Part shown: piece by piece, positions 6,065 to 16,771 of the stretch
How positions within the stretch are numbered: position 1 is the first letter of the stretch
Layout: each line of letters starts with the position of its first letter
Assembly (NCBI RefSeq): GCF_900111745.1
Contig: NZ_FOIJ01000008.1
Location: 248,001-312,000 of the forward strand
Source: Stigmatella erecta
GTDB taxonomy: Bacteria; Myxococcota; Myxococcia; Myxococcales; Myxococcaceae
Direction: 5' to 3'
Length of the DNA stretch: 64,000 bases
Notes under the pieces: generated by a model
Told to the model about the DNA's origin: nothing
Databases searched by the model: none
Seen by the model: the letters and a program-made list of their open reading frames with translations, nothing else
Position numbers and translations under genes: made by a program

Positions 6065-6186
6065 GAGACATCCATCCTAACCGCCTTGATGCCATGGGGG
6101 GCCACCACTAGATTCTTCCGCCCCCTTATGTTCATGCGGTTCATGCAGGAGACACGGTGGGTTACCTCGAAGGGCGTGGAGACGTC

Positions 6187-6939
6187 ATGAAGCGGCTGGT
6201 CGCGCTGGTGGGAGGGCTCGTCGCGTTTGCCGCCGGGGCCTATGTGCTTCCGGGCGGCTCCATCCTGCGCCGGACGGTGAGCGCGCGGGAGGAGGCCGCG
6301 TTCGCCAACCTGCGCGTGGAGGGCTCGTACGTCTTCTTCGGGCCCGCGGCGAAGGAGGCGGGCACGGCGCTGGGCGTCTCCACGGAGCGCGCCGAGCTGG
6401 CCGCCGATGGGGCCATGCTCCTGAAGCCCCCCGAGCGCTGCCGCTTCGAGCTGGGAAGCCAGGACGGCAACCGCCTGGCCGTGGTGCAGGCAGGCGGCCG
6501 CCGGCGCCAGGAGGGCGCGGAGGTGGCCGTGCTGTCGGCCGCCATGGGCCAGCTCTGCCCGCTGCTCACGGCGCGCAACGGCGCCGACGGGGAGGCGCGC
6601 GCGGAGCTGGAGCAGCACCTGCAGGGGCTGGGCATCGCCACGCGCACCACGTCCCTGGCCCGGTTCGGGGGAGACGTGGCGTACGTGCTGGGCGACCCCG
6701 GCGAGGGCAAGCCCCAGTTCTGGGTCTACAAGGACAACTTCCGCCCGGCCCGGGTGCGCTGGACGGACAAGGCCGGCACGGCGTGGGACGTGCGCTTCAT
6801 CGACTATGCGTCCGCGGTGACGGGCGGCACGCTGCCCCGGAGCATCGAGGTGTGGCGCGGCGGCCAGCGGGCCCTGCGCTTCACCTCCATCCGGTCCGAC
6901 ACCCGCACGGTGCTGGCCGATAAACTCTTCACCCCTTAG
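6187..6939 (+). CDS. exported LolA-like lipoprotein-sorting family protein, function unknown
   Basis: An upstream in-frame GTG at 6157 exists, but ATG at 6187 follows a GGAG element and begins a clean signal peptide (MKRL, then a 17-residue hydrophobic core), so it is preferred. The mature part, about 225 residues, is beta-strand rich with FWVYKDNFRPARVRW and SIEVWRGGQRALRF segments. This resembles the half-barrel of periplasmic outer-membrane lipoprotein-sorting proteins (LolA/LolB superfamily). Identity is fold-level only; lolA itself is at 62452. It probably acts in the periplasm. The following gene starts 81 bases downstream. Confidence 0.55.
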   Translation: MKRLVALVGGLVAFAAGAYVLPGGSILRRTVSAREEAAFANLRVEGSYVFFGPAAKEAGTALGVSTERAELAADGAMLLKPPERCRFELGSQDGNRLAVVQAGGRRRQEGAEVAVLSAAMGQLCPLLTARNGADGEARAELEQHLQGLGIATRTTSLARFGGDVAYVLGDPGEGKPQFWVYKDNFRPARVRWTDKAGTAWDVRFIDYASAVTGGTLPRSIEVWRGGQRALRFTSIRSDTRTVLADKLFTP

Positions 6940-7020: not shown

Positions 7021-9516
7021 ATGTTTGACTGTGAGCGGACGCAGCTCTGGACGAGGACCCTGGGCGAGCGGGAGGCGGATCCAGACCGGGCGGCGCGGGA
7101 ATACCTGCGGGAGCACCTGCGCCGGCTGCGCGAGCGGGCGGCGCTGGCCGCCGAGCAGATCCGGAATGCCTATCCGAGCTTCGGGTGGGTGCGGCGGGGC
7201 AACCGCTTCGATGTGCTGTGGGAGCGGGTGGATCTGCTGCTGGGGCCTGACTACCCCCTCACGGCCGCCGAGGCCTTCGTGCTGGGCAGCGCGCTGCTCG
7301 TGCAGGAGCTGGGGGTGGGGCTCGCGGGCATGCCCGGCGGCGAGGCCGGCCTGCGCGCCACCCAGGAGTGGAAGGATGCCCTGGCCGCGCGCATCCACCG
7401 GGAGACGGACCGGGCGCCCTCGCCCGCCGAGCTGAAGAACCCGGCGGAGGAGTACATCCTGCTCGCCATGGAGGATGCGCTGCGGGTGCTGGCGCTCAAG
7501 CGCGCCCGGAGCCTGGCGCTGTTCTCCTGGCAGGGGACCCGGGGCGAGGCGCTGCACCTGCTGGAGGACGAGGGGCTGCGGCGGCACTTCGGCGAGCTCG
7601 TGGGCGAGGTGGCCTACAGCCAGGAGTGGGACGTGTCCGAGGTGGGCCGGGTGCTCGCGCGGCGCACGCTGGCGGCCCCGGCCTCGGTGCCTTCGGACTG
7701 GACGGTGGATGCGCTGAAGGTGGCCGCGGTGCTCCGGGCCGCGCGGACGCTGCTCGTCGAGGAGCGGCGCCGCCGGCTGAGCCGGCCCACGCTCGTGCAG
7801 GACCGGCTGCTGTACACCACGGCCGAGCCCTTCTCGCGTGGGGAGTCCGAGGTGTTCTGGACCTGCTTCGACGCGCTCCGGGTGATTGACCGGGAGCTGC
7901 GCGACGTGGACGCGCTGCTCCGGGCCAGCGCCCGGCCCCGCCTGCTGGCGCGGGGCGTGGTGGACGTGGACGATGCGTCCCGGCTGGCCTCGCACCTGAA
8001 GACCCAGGACTGGATTCCGGTGGATGCCCGGGTGCACATCTCGGATGTGCCGGGGTTGCTCGCGCAGATTGGCGGCGCGGCGCTGTACCGCAAGGATCCG
8101 TCGGTGCCGCTGCGGGAGCTCATCCAGAACGCCGCGGATGCCATCCGCGCCCGGCGCGTGCTGGAGGGCCGGGACGAGGAGTGGGGCACCATCACCGTCC
8201 GGGTGGGCCGGGACTCCCACGGCCGGTGGATCGAAGTGGCCGACACGGGGCTGGGCATGACCGAGCGCGTGTTGACCCGGCACCTGCTCGACGTGGGCCG
8301 CAGCTACTGGATGTCCGAGGACATGCGCCGGGACCACCCGGGCCTGGCCGCCAGCAGCTTCCACCCCACGGGACGCTTCGGGGTGGGCTTCTTCTCGGTG
8401 TTCATGTGGGGGGACCGGCTGCGGGTGGCGTCCCGGCCCTTGCAGGGGCAGGCCACCCAGGTGCTGGAGTTCGACAACGGCCTGGGCGCGCACCCCATCC
8501 TGCGGCCCGCGCAGCCGGGCGAGCTGCTGGCCGAGGCGGGCACGCGGATCCGGGTGTGGCTGGCCCGCGAGCAGGACTGGGAGCAGATGCTGCTGGACCG
8601 GAGCGATCAGTGGGACCACTGGTCGGAGTCCGAGGAGCGCATCGCCTTCGGCGAGCTGCTGGGGCGGGTGTGCCCCACGCTGGATGTGACGCTGGAGCTG
8701 GAGGAGCATCCGGACCAGGCGGTGACGATCCTCAAGGCCAACGACTGGCTGACGCTGGAGAGCACGCGGCTCTTGCGCCGCATCGGCAACACCACGCGCG
8801 GGGTCAACACGGCGCTGATGGAGTTCCTGGCCCCCATGGTCCGGCCGGTGATGGCGGAGAACGGGCAGTGTGTCGGGCGGATCTGCATCGCCTCCGCCTC
8901 CATGCAGCGGTGGGCGGGCCTGTCGGTGCTCACGGCGGGGGGCCTGCGGGCCCGGTACTCGCGGGAGTTCACCGGGGCGCTGCTGGCCACCACGGATGTG
9001 GTGACGCGCGATGACGCGGAGCCGCTCGCGATGCGCGAGGACCTGGCGCGGTGGGCCTCGGAGCAGGCGCGGCTCTGGGAGAAGTACCAGCTCAACTTCG
9101 AGGGGTACGAGCTCCACAAGCGGCTCGACATCGGGCTGGCGGTGCTCTCCTGCGGCGGCGAGCCCGGAGCGCTGCCCATCGGGTACCGGGCCGGCACGGC
9201 GCTGACGCTGGCCGCGCTCCAGGAGTTCGCGTCGGAGCGGGACGAGGTGACGCTGGTGGACGGCGCGGAGCGGGCCGTGCGCAAGCATGCCGAGCTCGTG
9301 GTCATCCCGTGCCACGAGGCGGGACACGCCGCCGCGGGCCGCCTGCTGGCCCATCTGCCCGAGCTGATCGGCGTCTACCTGGCGAAGGCCTGGGGCGCGT
9401 CCATCCAGGAGGTGGTCGACAACGTGCAGATCTCCGAGAAGGAGTGGAACCCCACCGATGGGCGCAAGCGCCGCACGTGGGTGTTCCAGCGGCCAGAGGT
9501 GCCCCGGTTCCACTGA
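7021..9516 (+). CDS. Hsp90-type ATPase with N-terminal degenerate HD (HD-CE-like) domain
   Basis: 831 residues. The centre is a GHKL ATPase of HtpG type: N-box RELIQNAADAI (365-375), G1 box DTGLGM (408-413) and G2 box GRFGVGFFSVFMWGDRL (451-467). All ATP-site residues look intact, including the N-box Glu. Residues about 60-260 are helical and follow the pattern of HD domains found ahead of Hsp90-like ATPases in bacterial conflict systems (HD-CE). The positions expected to hold metal ligands are changed: HD is replaced by QE (95-96) and the AD pair by AA (240-241). The rest (490-831) is unlike HtpG and contains HEAGH at 765-769. No signal or membrane segment. Possible roles are a regulatory or defence-related chaperone-like switch; the domain assignment of the N-terminus is my inference. 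Confidence 0.7.
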   Translation: MFDCERTQLWTRTLGEREADPDRAAREYLREHLRRLRERAALAAEQIRNAYPSFGWVRRGNRFDVLWERVDLLLGPDYPLTAAEAFVLGSALLVQELGVGLAGMPGGEAGLRATQEWKDALAARIHRETDRAPSPAELKNPAEEYILLAMEDALRVLALKRARSLALFSWQGTRGEALHLLEDEGLRRHFGELVGEVAYSQEWDVSEVGRVLARRTLAAPASVPSDWTVDALKVAAVLRAARTLLVEERRRRLSRPTLVQDRLLYTTAEPFSRGESEVFWTCFDALRVIDRELRDVDALLRASARPRLLARGVVDVDDASRLASHLKTQDWIPVDARVHISDVPGLLAQIGGAALYRKDPSVPLRELIQNAADAIRARRVLEGRDEEWGTITVRVGRDSHGRWIEVADTGLGMTERVLTRHLLDVGRSYWMSEDMRRDHPGLAASSFHPTGRFGVGFFSVFMWGDRLRVASRPLQGQATQVLEFDNGLGAHPILRPAQPGELLAEAGTRIRVWLAREQDWEQMLLDRSDQWDHWSESEERIAFGELLGRVCPTLDVTLELEEHPDQAVTILKANDWLTLESTRLLRRIGNTTRGVNTALMEFLAPMVRPVMAENGQCVGRICIASASMQRWAGLSVLTAGGLRARYSREFTGALLATTDVVTRDDAEPLAMREDLARWASEQARLWEKYQLNFEGYELHKRLDIGLAVLSCGGEPGALPIGYRAGTALTLAALQEFASERDEVTLVDGAERAVRKHAELVVIPCHEAGHAAAGRLLAHLPELIGVYLAKAWGASIQEVVDNVQISEKEWNPTDGRKRRTWVFQRPEVPRFH

Positions 9517-9556
9517 CGGGGGCCGTCCCGACGGCTGGAGGGGCGGCGAGGGAGCC

Positions 9557-9575
9557 CTTTCCCGCGCCGGGAAAG
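9557..9575. other. perfect hairpin upstream of priA
   Basis: A 7-bp perfect inverted repeat, CTTTCCC and GGGAAAG with a 5-base loop, lies 36 bases ahead of the chosen priA start. A second 6-bp hairpin, GCCGTC and GACGGC, is at 9522-9535 just after the preceding stop codon. Neither has a T-run, so a factor-independent terminator is not certain. The 94-base gap otherwise holds only the priA leader. Confidence 0.35.
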
Positions 9576-9610
9576 TGGTCGTGTCGGAGCACGCCGCTAC
9601 AGTGGTCCTT

Positions 9611-11857
9611 GTGAACGCGTCCGCCGCCCTAGCGTCCGTCGCCGTCGGCCGCCCTGTCCGGGGTGAGTTCACCTATGTCGTCCCGGACACACTCTCGGGA
9701 CGGCTGGTGCCCGGACAGCGGGTGCTGGTGCCCTTCGGACGGGGCACCGCCCTGGGCTTCTTCCTGGGGCCCGCCGTCCCGCCCGCAGAGGAGGGGGTCA
9801 AGCTCAAGCCCATCCAGCGCGTGCTGGAAGAGTCGCCCTCGCTGCCGCCGGACCTGATCGCCCTCTTGCGGTTCGCCGCCGAGCACTACCGCTATCCCCT
9901 GGGCGAGGTGATTCGCAGCGCGCTGCCCCCGGGGCTCACCAAGGCCGAGGATGGGAAGGAGGCCCGGCCGGACGTGCAGCAGTTCGCGGTGGCGCTGGTG
10001 GCCGAGCCCCCGGCGGAGCTGCGCCGGGCGCCGGCCCAGTCCGCGGCCCTGACCTACCTGCTGGCGGTGGGTGGCCGGGCGCCCCTGGAGGAAGTGTCCC
10101 ACGCGATTCCCGGTGCCCGGGAGATGCTGAAGAAGCTGGCCTCGCGCGGCATGGTCCGCATCGAGGAGCAGGTGCTCCAGCCAGGCGTGCGCGAGGGGCT
10201 GGAGCAGGGCCGTCCCACGCTGCTCACCCCCGAGCAGTCGGTGGCGGTGAAGTCGCTCCAGGGCTCGCTGGAGGCGGGCGGCTTCCAGACGGTGCTGCTG
10301 CACGGGGTGACGGGCAGCGGGAAGACGGAGGTGTACCTGCGCGCGGTGGAGCACGCGCTCGCGCAGGGCAAGGGCAGCCTCGTGCTGGTGCCGGAGATCG
10401 CCCTCACGCCGCAGCTGGTGGGGCGCTTCCGCAGCCGCTTCGGCGCGGAGGTGGCGGTGCTGCACTCGGGGCTGAAGGACCGGGAGCGGCTCTTCCACTG
10501 GCAGGCGCTGCGCAAGGGCACCGTGCGCATCGCCGTGGGGGTGCGCTCGGCCATCTGGGCCCCGGTGGAGAACCTGGGCCTGGTGGTGGTGGACGAGGAG
10601 CACGACCCGTCCTTCAAGCAGGAGGACAAGCTGCGCTACAACGCCCGCGACATGGCGGTGGTGCGCGGCAAGCAGGCCGGCGCGCTGGTGGTGCTCGGCT
10701 CGGCCACGCCCTCGCTGGAGTCGCTGGAGAACGTGCGCCGCGGCCGGTACGGCGTGCTGGAGATGAAGAGCCGGGTGGATGACCGGCCCATGCCGGGCAT
10801 CGAGCTGGTGGACCTGCGCATCGAGCGGCCCCGCGACGGCGGCCCCGTGCAGGAAGAGGCGCCCATCCTCTCCCCGCCACTGCTGGATGCGATGCAGCAG
10901 ACGCTGGAGCGCGGGCAGCAGACCATCCTCTTCCTCAACCGCCGGGGGCACAGCACCTTCCTGCTGTGCGAGGTGTGTGGGCTCACGCTCAAGTGCTCGG
11001 ACTGCGACGTGTGCCTCACGCTGCACCGCTCCTCGTCGCGGGTGGTGTGCCACTACTGCGGCCTGAGCGGCCCGGTGCCGGACCAGTGCCGCGAGTGCAC
11101 GGGCCCGCTGCTGAAGCTCGGCATCGGCACCGAGCGCGTGGAGGCGGAGGTGGCCGAGCGCCTGCCCCACGCCCGCGTGGCGCGGCTGGACCGGGACTCG
11201 GCCACCAGCGCCGAGCGTGTCACGGAGCTGCTGGCCGCGTTCGCCCGGCGTGAAATCGACGTGCTGGTGGGCACGCAGATGGTGGCCAAGGGGCACGACT
11301 TTCCGGGGGTGACGCTGGTCTGCGTGGTGATGGCGGACACGTCCCTGGCCATCCCGGATTTCCGGGCCGCCGAGCGCACCTTCCACCTGCTCACCCAGGT
11401 GGCCGGCCGGGCCGGCCGCGGCAAGGACCCGGGCCGCGTGCTGGTGCAGACGTACAACCCGGACTCCGAGCCGGTGAAGCGCGTGCTCACCCATGACTTC
11501 GAGGGCTTCGCGCAGCAGGAGCTGGAGTGGCGCCGGGCCCTGGCCTATCCCCCCTACACCCGGCTGGTGGCCATCCGGCTGGAAGGCGAGCACCCGGAGC
11601 AGACCGCCCGCGTGGCGCGGATGCTGGGGGACTTCCTCTCGCGGCGCATGCCTCCGGCCTCCGCGGGCGTGCGCATGCTGGGGCCGGCCCTGGCCCCCAT
11701 TGCCCGGGTCCGGGGTCGCACGCGGTGGCAGATGCTCCTCAAGGCGCCGACACATGCGGCGCTCGCCCCACTGCTTACCCGGCTGGAGGTGAAGCTGGAA
11801 GAAGTTCCCGCCGGGGTGAAGGTGACAATCGACGTGGACCCGGGGGCCATGCTGTAG
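9611..11857 (+). CDS. priA: primosomal replication restart helicase PriA
   Basis: 748 residues from a GTG start at 9611. The frame is open further upstream, but the conserved N-terminal 3'-DNA-binding domain (VAVGRPVRGEFTYVVP) begins right after this GTG. It is a superfamily 2 helicase that reloads the replisome at stalled forks. Motif I is GVTGSGKT at 232-239 and motif II is DEEH at 328-331. Between the helicase lobes lies the zinc domain with eight cysteines (from C453, spaced as CxxC pairs to about 497). RAGR-type motif VI (QVAGRAGRG) follows. Length and motif order match full-length PriA. The next gene starts 15 bases downstream, suggesting co-transcription. Confidence 0.95.
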   Translation: MNASAALASVAVGRPVRGEFTYVVPDTLSGRLVPGQRVLVPFGRGTALGFFLGPAVPPAEEGVKLKPIQRVLEESPSLPPDLIALLRFAAEHYRYPLGEVIRSALPPGLTKAEDGKEARPDVQQFAVALVAEPPAELRRAPAQSAALTYLLAVGGRAPLEEVSHAIPGAREMLKKLASRGMVRIEEQVLQPGVREGLEQGRPTLLTPEQSVAVKSLQGSLEAGGFQTVLLHGVTGSGKTEVYLRAVEHALAQGKGSLVLVPEIALTPQLVGRFRSRFGAEVAVLHSGLKDRERLFHWQALRKGTVRIAVGVRSAIWAPVENLGLVVVDEEHDPSFKQEDKLRYNARDMAVVRGKQAGALVVLGSATPSLESLENVRRGRYGVLEMKSRVDDRPMPGIELVDLRIERPRDGGPVQEEAPILSPPLLDAMQQTLERGQQTILFLNRRGHSTFLLCEVCGLTLKCSDCDVCLTLHRSSSRVVCHYCGLSGPVPDQCRECTGPLLKLGIGTERVEAEVAERLPHARVARLDRDSATSAERVTELLAAFARREIDVLVGTQMVAKGHDFPGVTLVCVVMADTSLAIPDFRAAERTFHLLTQVAGRAGRGKDPGRVLVQTYNPDSEPVKRVLTHDFEGFAQQELEWRRALAYPPYTRLVAIRLEGEHPEQTARVARMLGDFLSRRMPPASAGVRMLGPALAPIARVRGRTRWQMLLKAPTHAALAPLLTRLEVKLEEVPAGVKVTIDVDPGAML

Positions 11858-16771
<4,914 letters not shown>

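Follow-up and report, generated by a model that had tools for sequence, protein, structure and literature searches.

A degenerate HD-CE domain joined to an Hsp90-type ATPase at a conserved chromosomal place in the Hyalangium clade

The locus and its features

The window (the whole stretch of DNA analysed, 64,000 nucleotides) carries, just upstream of priA, a gene whose product joins an N-terminal HD-CE domain to an Hsp90-type ATPase. The features referred to below, with residues numbered in this protein, are:

6157..6939, + strand: upstream neighbour, a conserved protein present in 75/76 genomes of the family (context)
7021..9516, + strand: pseudo-HD-CE plus Hsp90-type ATPase gene (ORF, ATG start, 831 aa)
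7183..7785, + strand: HD-CE domain, residues 55-255, catalytically degenerate as judged by its ligand positions (PF24391, E 3.8e-18; HD-superfamily fold)
7192..7206, + strand: first His motif, residues 58-62 (RRGNR in the window protein, HDITH in relatives)
7303..7308, + strand: HD pair, residues 95-96 (QE in the window protein, HD in relatives; four orthologues have YD or SD)
7744..7746, + strand: last metal-ligand Asp, residue 242 (R here, D in relatives and four orthologues)
7768..7773, + strand: deletion point after residue 250 (22-residue APxFL...HWxFQ segment of relatives absent)
8029..9123, + strand: Hsp90 N (GHKL) and middle domains, best aligned over residues 337-701 (Hsc82 (6xlg) match, HtpG models)
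8116..8139, + strand: ATP-site helix ELIQNAAD, residues 366-373 (no change at E366, N370 or D373 across 24 aligned sequences)
9007..9009, + strand: R663, candidate Hsp90 middle-domain catalytic Arg (invariant in all relatives covering the position)
9458..11857, + strand: downstream neighbour priA (context; translation probably begins near codon 40)

Domain assignment and predicted fold

The HD-CE assignment had been considered the weakest point of an earlier, sequence-only reading of this DNA; it now clears the Pfam cut-off and agrees with the fold comparison. The Pfam HD-CE model (PF24391) matches residues 66-250 with 66.5 bits (cut-off 27, E 3.8e-18), and four orthologues reach 58-78 bits with the same model; neither the window protein nor these four matched iHD-CE (PF24401), even at E 10. 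Further along, NCBIfam HtpG/Hsp90 models match residues 355-517 (E 1e-18 to 3e-17), with the curated HtpG equivalog cut-off missed by a wide interval (62.5 bits vs 371). No Pfam family matched the C-terminal 141 residues, and no PADLOC anti-phage model matched the protein at E up to 1. A second HD-CE match in the same genome was set aside as being, by sequence, a Ppx/GppA-type protein.

The N-terminal 343 residues were modelled by AlphaFold2 from 21 sequences with a pLDDT of 91.5. Foldseek alone returned no significant matches to this model, and searching PDB sequences with the profile of the N-domain returned none at all; in structural comparison, all 50 matches listed belong to the HD superfamily, the best among them being the C-terminal HD-like domain of PPX/GppA (Z 9.3 over 184 residues, rmsd 4.0), with cyclic-nucleotide phosphodiesterases at Z 8.0 or less. 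A Z of about 9 for a helical domain is weak evidence by itself, and it agrees with the Pfam match: the similarity to an HD family and the HD-type predicted fold on which the first reading depended have both been found.

The full-length model has a pLDDT of 84. In this predicted structure, residues 337-791 match the N and middle domains of Hsp90 at Z 22.8, and Hsc82 (6xlg) aligns to residues 337-701 at Z 22.6 (301 residues, rmsd 4.3); most alignments to the Hsp90 matches listed stop inside the N and middle part, and the C-terminal part was modelled only within the full length. The protein carries the E/N/D helix and the DxGxGM and GxFGxGF motifs of Hsp90/GHKL ATPases, and the intact ATP-binding residues ascribed to it earlier are also intact in its orthologues: E366, N370, D373, D408, G410, G412, M413, G454 and G456 are invariant in all eight. 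Relative to more distant homologues, the ATP-binding residues are unchanged except for one I/V exchange within the GxFGxGF motif. From the local pattern, R663 may be the middle-domain catalytic Arg; the global profile alignment to HtpG is unreliable in the middle domain.

Near the C-terminus, residues 765-769 (HEAGH, window 9313-9327) fit the HExxH zinc-protease pattern; the motif is present in 8/8 orthologues of the Hyalangium clade and 0/28 other relatives. The idea of a zinc protease was rejected: residues 766-776 are under pLDDT 50, in a loop-rich region with no Pfam match.

Decay of the HD site

In the alignment, all 28 relatives outside the Hyalangium clade carry H58, H62, H95, D96, H201 and D242. 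At these positions the window protein has R, R, Q, E, Q and R, respectively, leaving every metal-ligand position changed; judged from the alignment, the metal-ligand site (H, HD, D) of an active HD phosphohydrolase is lost. Replacement of the HD pair by QE had been read correctly from the single sequence. Loss of the later Asp had been placed one residue off, at A240-A241: the motif is in fact A241-R242, retained as A-D in four of the eight orthologues. Surveyed across homologues, the site turns out to be more degraded than that reading had seen.

The orthologues preserve intermediate states. H58, H62 (always to R), H95 and H158 (to A) are lost in 8/8; D96 and D242 are still Asp in four of the eight and lost in the window protein's subclade; H201 is lost in three of the eight, which is 3/4 of that subclade, window protein included. 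On this pattern of substitutions, decay of the HD site is stepwise, with His residues going first and both Asp later in the window's subclade. The window protein has lost the 22-residue segment that follows R250 in relatives, in which a P and an H-W are invariant; the non-ligand HD residues L66, W67, E84, G98, R239 and R250 are invariant. Among positions nearly invariant in relatives outside the host clade, 13/24 are changed in the HD part vs 7/36 in the GHKL part (Fisher p 0.011). The earlier suggestion of a dead or ligand-binding HD module beside a live ATPase is supported by this comparison with orthologues and distant relatives.

Inheritance and chromosomal context

Orthologues with the same start are found in all seven Hyalangium genomes examined (window genome counted in) and in one genome of another Myxococcaceae genus, which together are called here the Hyalangium clade; those of the six congeners and the other genus are full-length, with 72-95% identity. 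Among 195 genomes of the phylum, G147 alone adds another full-length relative, of the canonical kind. The eight sequences form a clade with 100/100 support, on a stem of 1.3 changes per column. The frame is open in 8/8 genomes, with neither stop nor frameshift, and no segment, HD part included, reaches a dN/dS of 1: the HD segment has the highest ratio in several pairs (0.26-0.62) and the middle domain the lowest (0.04-0.32), figures that serve for between-segment comparisons only, the Nei-Gojobori method tending to overstate the ratio in GC-rich genes. The gene is inherited vertically and is under purifying selection.

Its place is conserved, between the family-wide protein gene and priA. In several other genera of the family these two genes lie near each other with no HD-CE/Hsp90 gene, so a single insertion at this site is most likely. 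An operon with priA was considered and rejected: it is not conserved, since 3.7 kb or more separates the gene from priA in three congeners. That the gene stands alone between housekeeping genes, as first described, holds up; intact relatives are likewise single genes with no constant partner at the surveyed loci, and no partner of the window protein was found.

Two further genes were noted in the surroundings. Downstream of priA (window 11873-16771) lies a gene for a 1632-aa protein whose N-terminus resembles a response regulator and whose C-terminus is a DnaJ domain, its middle poorly conserved between congeners. About 86 kb upstream of the HD-CE/Hsp90 gene is one for an HtpG-like ATPase (G000:C8:169340-169702), with counterparts similarly far away in several congeners.

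Intact relatives and known systems

Relatives with roughly 26-40% identity occur in archaea, Bacillota, Bacteroidota, Chloroflexota, Acidobacteriota, Fibrobacterota, Armatimonadota, Cyanobacteria and Pseudomonadota. They are rare: 6/398 genomes in one phylum sample and 1/299 in another, each count taking in the genome around which the sample was built. In the 398-genome sample, the gene is duplicated in one genome and frame-broken in another. Frame-broken canonical HD-CE/Hsp90 copies were seen at L074:5974-8678 and L135/L137 (Dictyobacter vulcani; one genome, Methylobacter phylum sample).

Some intact relatives keep suggestive company. At L069 the relative adjoins paired AbiLi and AbiLii genes together with a serine recombinase, at L071 a UvrD helicase as well as a type IIG restriction gene, and at L070 a KAP-type candidate defence gene; a Zymomonas plasmid carries another near a TIR gene. 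A clear defence neighbour is present at only 3/13 surveyed loci, a raw count, and several of the others are among ordinary genes. Two related architectures were also seen: an HD-CE domain in one chain with a NACHT NTPase and zinc fingers of the ClpX type (L082:4315-7899, same phylum), and a 1655-aa protein from another genus of the family (G102, L083:5549-10513) consisting of a metallophosphoesterase, iHD-CE, an Hsp90-type ATPase and five wHTH-HSP90_Na-assoc repeats. Surroundings and architectures are suggestive of a connection with conflict systems.

The single-gene relative of Methylobacter tundripaludum (L075; PF24391 plus HATPase_c_3) shares the domain order of the window protein over nearly its full length, with 38% identity and the same ATP-site motifs. 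Single-gene relatives of this kind keep all HD ligands, the post-R250 segment and a longer C-terminal part, which the window protein has lost. Degenerate HD-CE domains preceding an Hsp90-type ATPase are themselves already known, being covered by Pfam iHD-CE, in which the "i" presumably stands for inactive, judging by the family name and the G102 protein sequence. That protein has the additional metallophosphoesterase and wHTH repeats, whereas the window protein does not match PF24401; since four of its orthologues do not either, the window protein looks like an independent inactivation within the HD-CE family. More remote comparisons are PPX/GppA, the nearest solved fold to the N-domain, in which the HD-like domain is joined to a phosphatase of another fold with no Hsp90 part, and HtpG/Hsp90/TRAP1, which have the N and middle domains and ATP-site motifs in common with the window protein; they differ from it in lacking the added N-terminal HD module, and its C-terminal part has no clear match to their dimerisation domain among those listed. 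A literature search found no paper describing HD-CE in the library consulted.

Possible roles of the protein

The protein is probably a domesticated former HD-CE/Hsp90 conflict-type effector, now serving as an ATP-gated pseudo-HD switch or adaptor. On this proposal, the N and middle domains of the Hsp90 part would bind and probably hydrolyse ATP, changing shape as they do so. The HD part keeps its fold, by prediction, and most likely no longer cleaves a phosphoester, because the metal-holding residues are gone; it would have shifted from enzyme to binding or scaffold module, an arm moved by the ATPase and perhaps binding a ligand (a guess) or a partner protein.

A role in phage defence is unlikely to have persisted, with the pseudo-HD sensing or binding a signal of infection while an effector from another locus acts: relatives are rare, sometimes doubled or broken and partly beside defence and recombinase genes, and the iHD-CE plus metallophosphoesterase protein of the same family pairs a dead HD with another kind of catalytic domain, but the gene occupies one fixed chromosomal place throughout the examined members of the genus, which is unusual for a defence gene, and has neither a fused or adjacent effector nor a PADLOC match. 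The Hsp90 fold, intact ATP site and conserved neighbourhood would also suit a housekeeping accessory chaperone, perhaps linked to replication restart by its position just upstream of priA. This is quite improbable, given the distance to priA in the three congeners, the other genera in which priA lies near the same upstream gene with nothing of this kind present, and the HtpG-like genes that occur elsewhere in the orthologue-bearing genomes.

The relatively high dN/dS of the HD segment and the stepwise loss of ligands could instead mark a decaying remnant, with the HD part drifting and the gene being lost; uninterrupted frames throughout the clade, HD-part ratios below 1 and the invariance of the six non-ligand HD residues make this equally improbable. 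Activity of the HD part by other chemistry or another metal site is very hard to credit when every metal-ligand position in the window protein is altered; in its favour, an anion-binding pocket might survive, since each of the eight orthologues has R62 in place of H62 and no aligned sequence departs from Arg at 239 or 250.

The preferred reading, domestication to a pseudo-HD switch or adaptor, can be extended, with low probability. In this extension, a mobile conflict effector would have been captured once by an ancestor of Hyalangium and a sister lineage and its HD site then lost, giving a fixed chromosomal regulator whose pseudo-enzyme arm is driven by the Hsp90 ATPase; it might act as an antagonist or decoy of active HD-CE systems, or, in view of the clade-specific HEAGH motif, have acquired a new metal site.

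Taken as a whole, the comparison suggests that a mobile, defence-associated enzyme settled in the chromosome and became a switch or binding protein. It also offers a natural experiment: an identical architecture with full HD ligands in 28 relatives, and with a dead HD in a vertically inherited clade of eight. Some basic questions may be approached by comparing intact and dead-HD proteins. What is the role of the Hsp90 module when there is no enzyme for it to act with? Do bacterial pseudo-enzymes descend from defence effectors?
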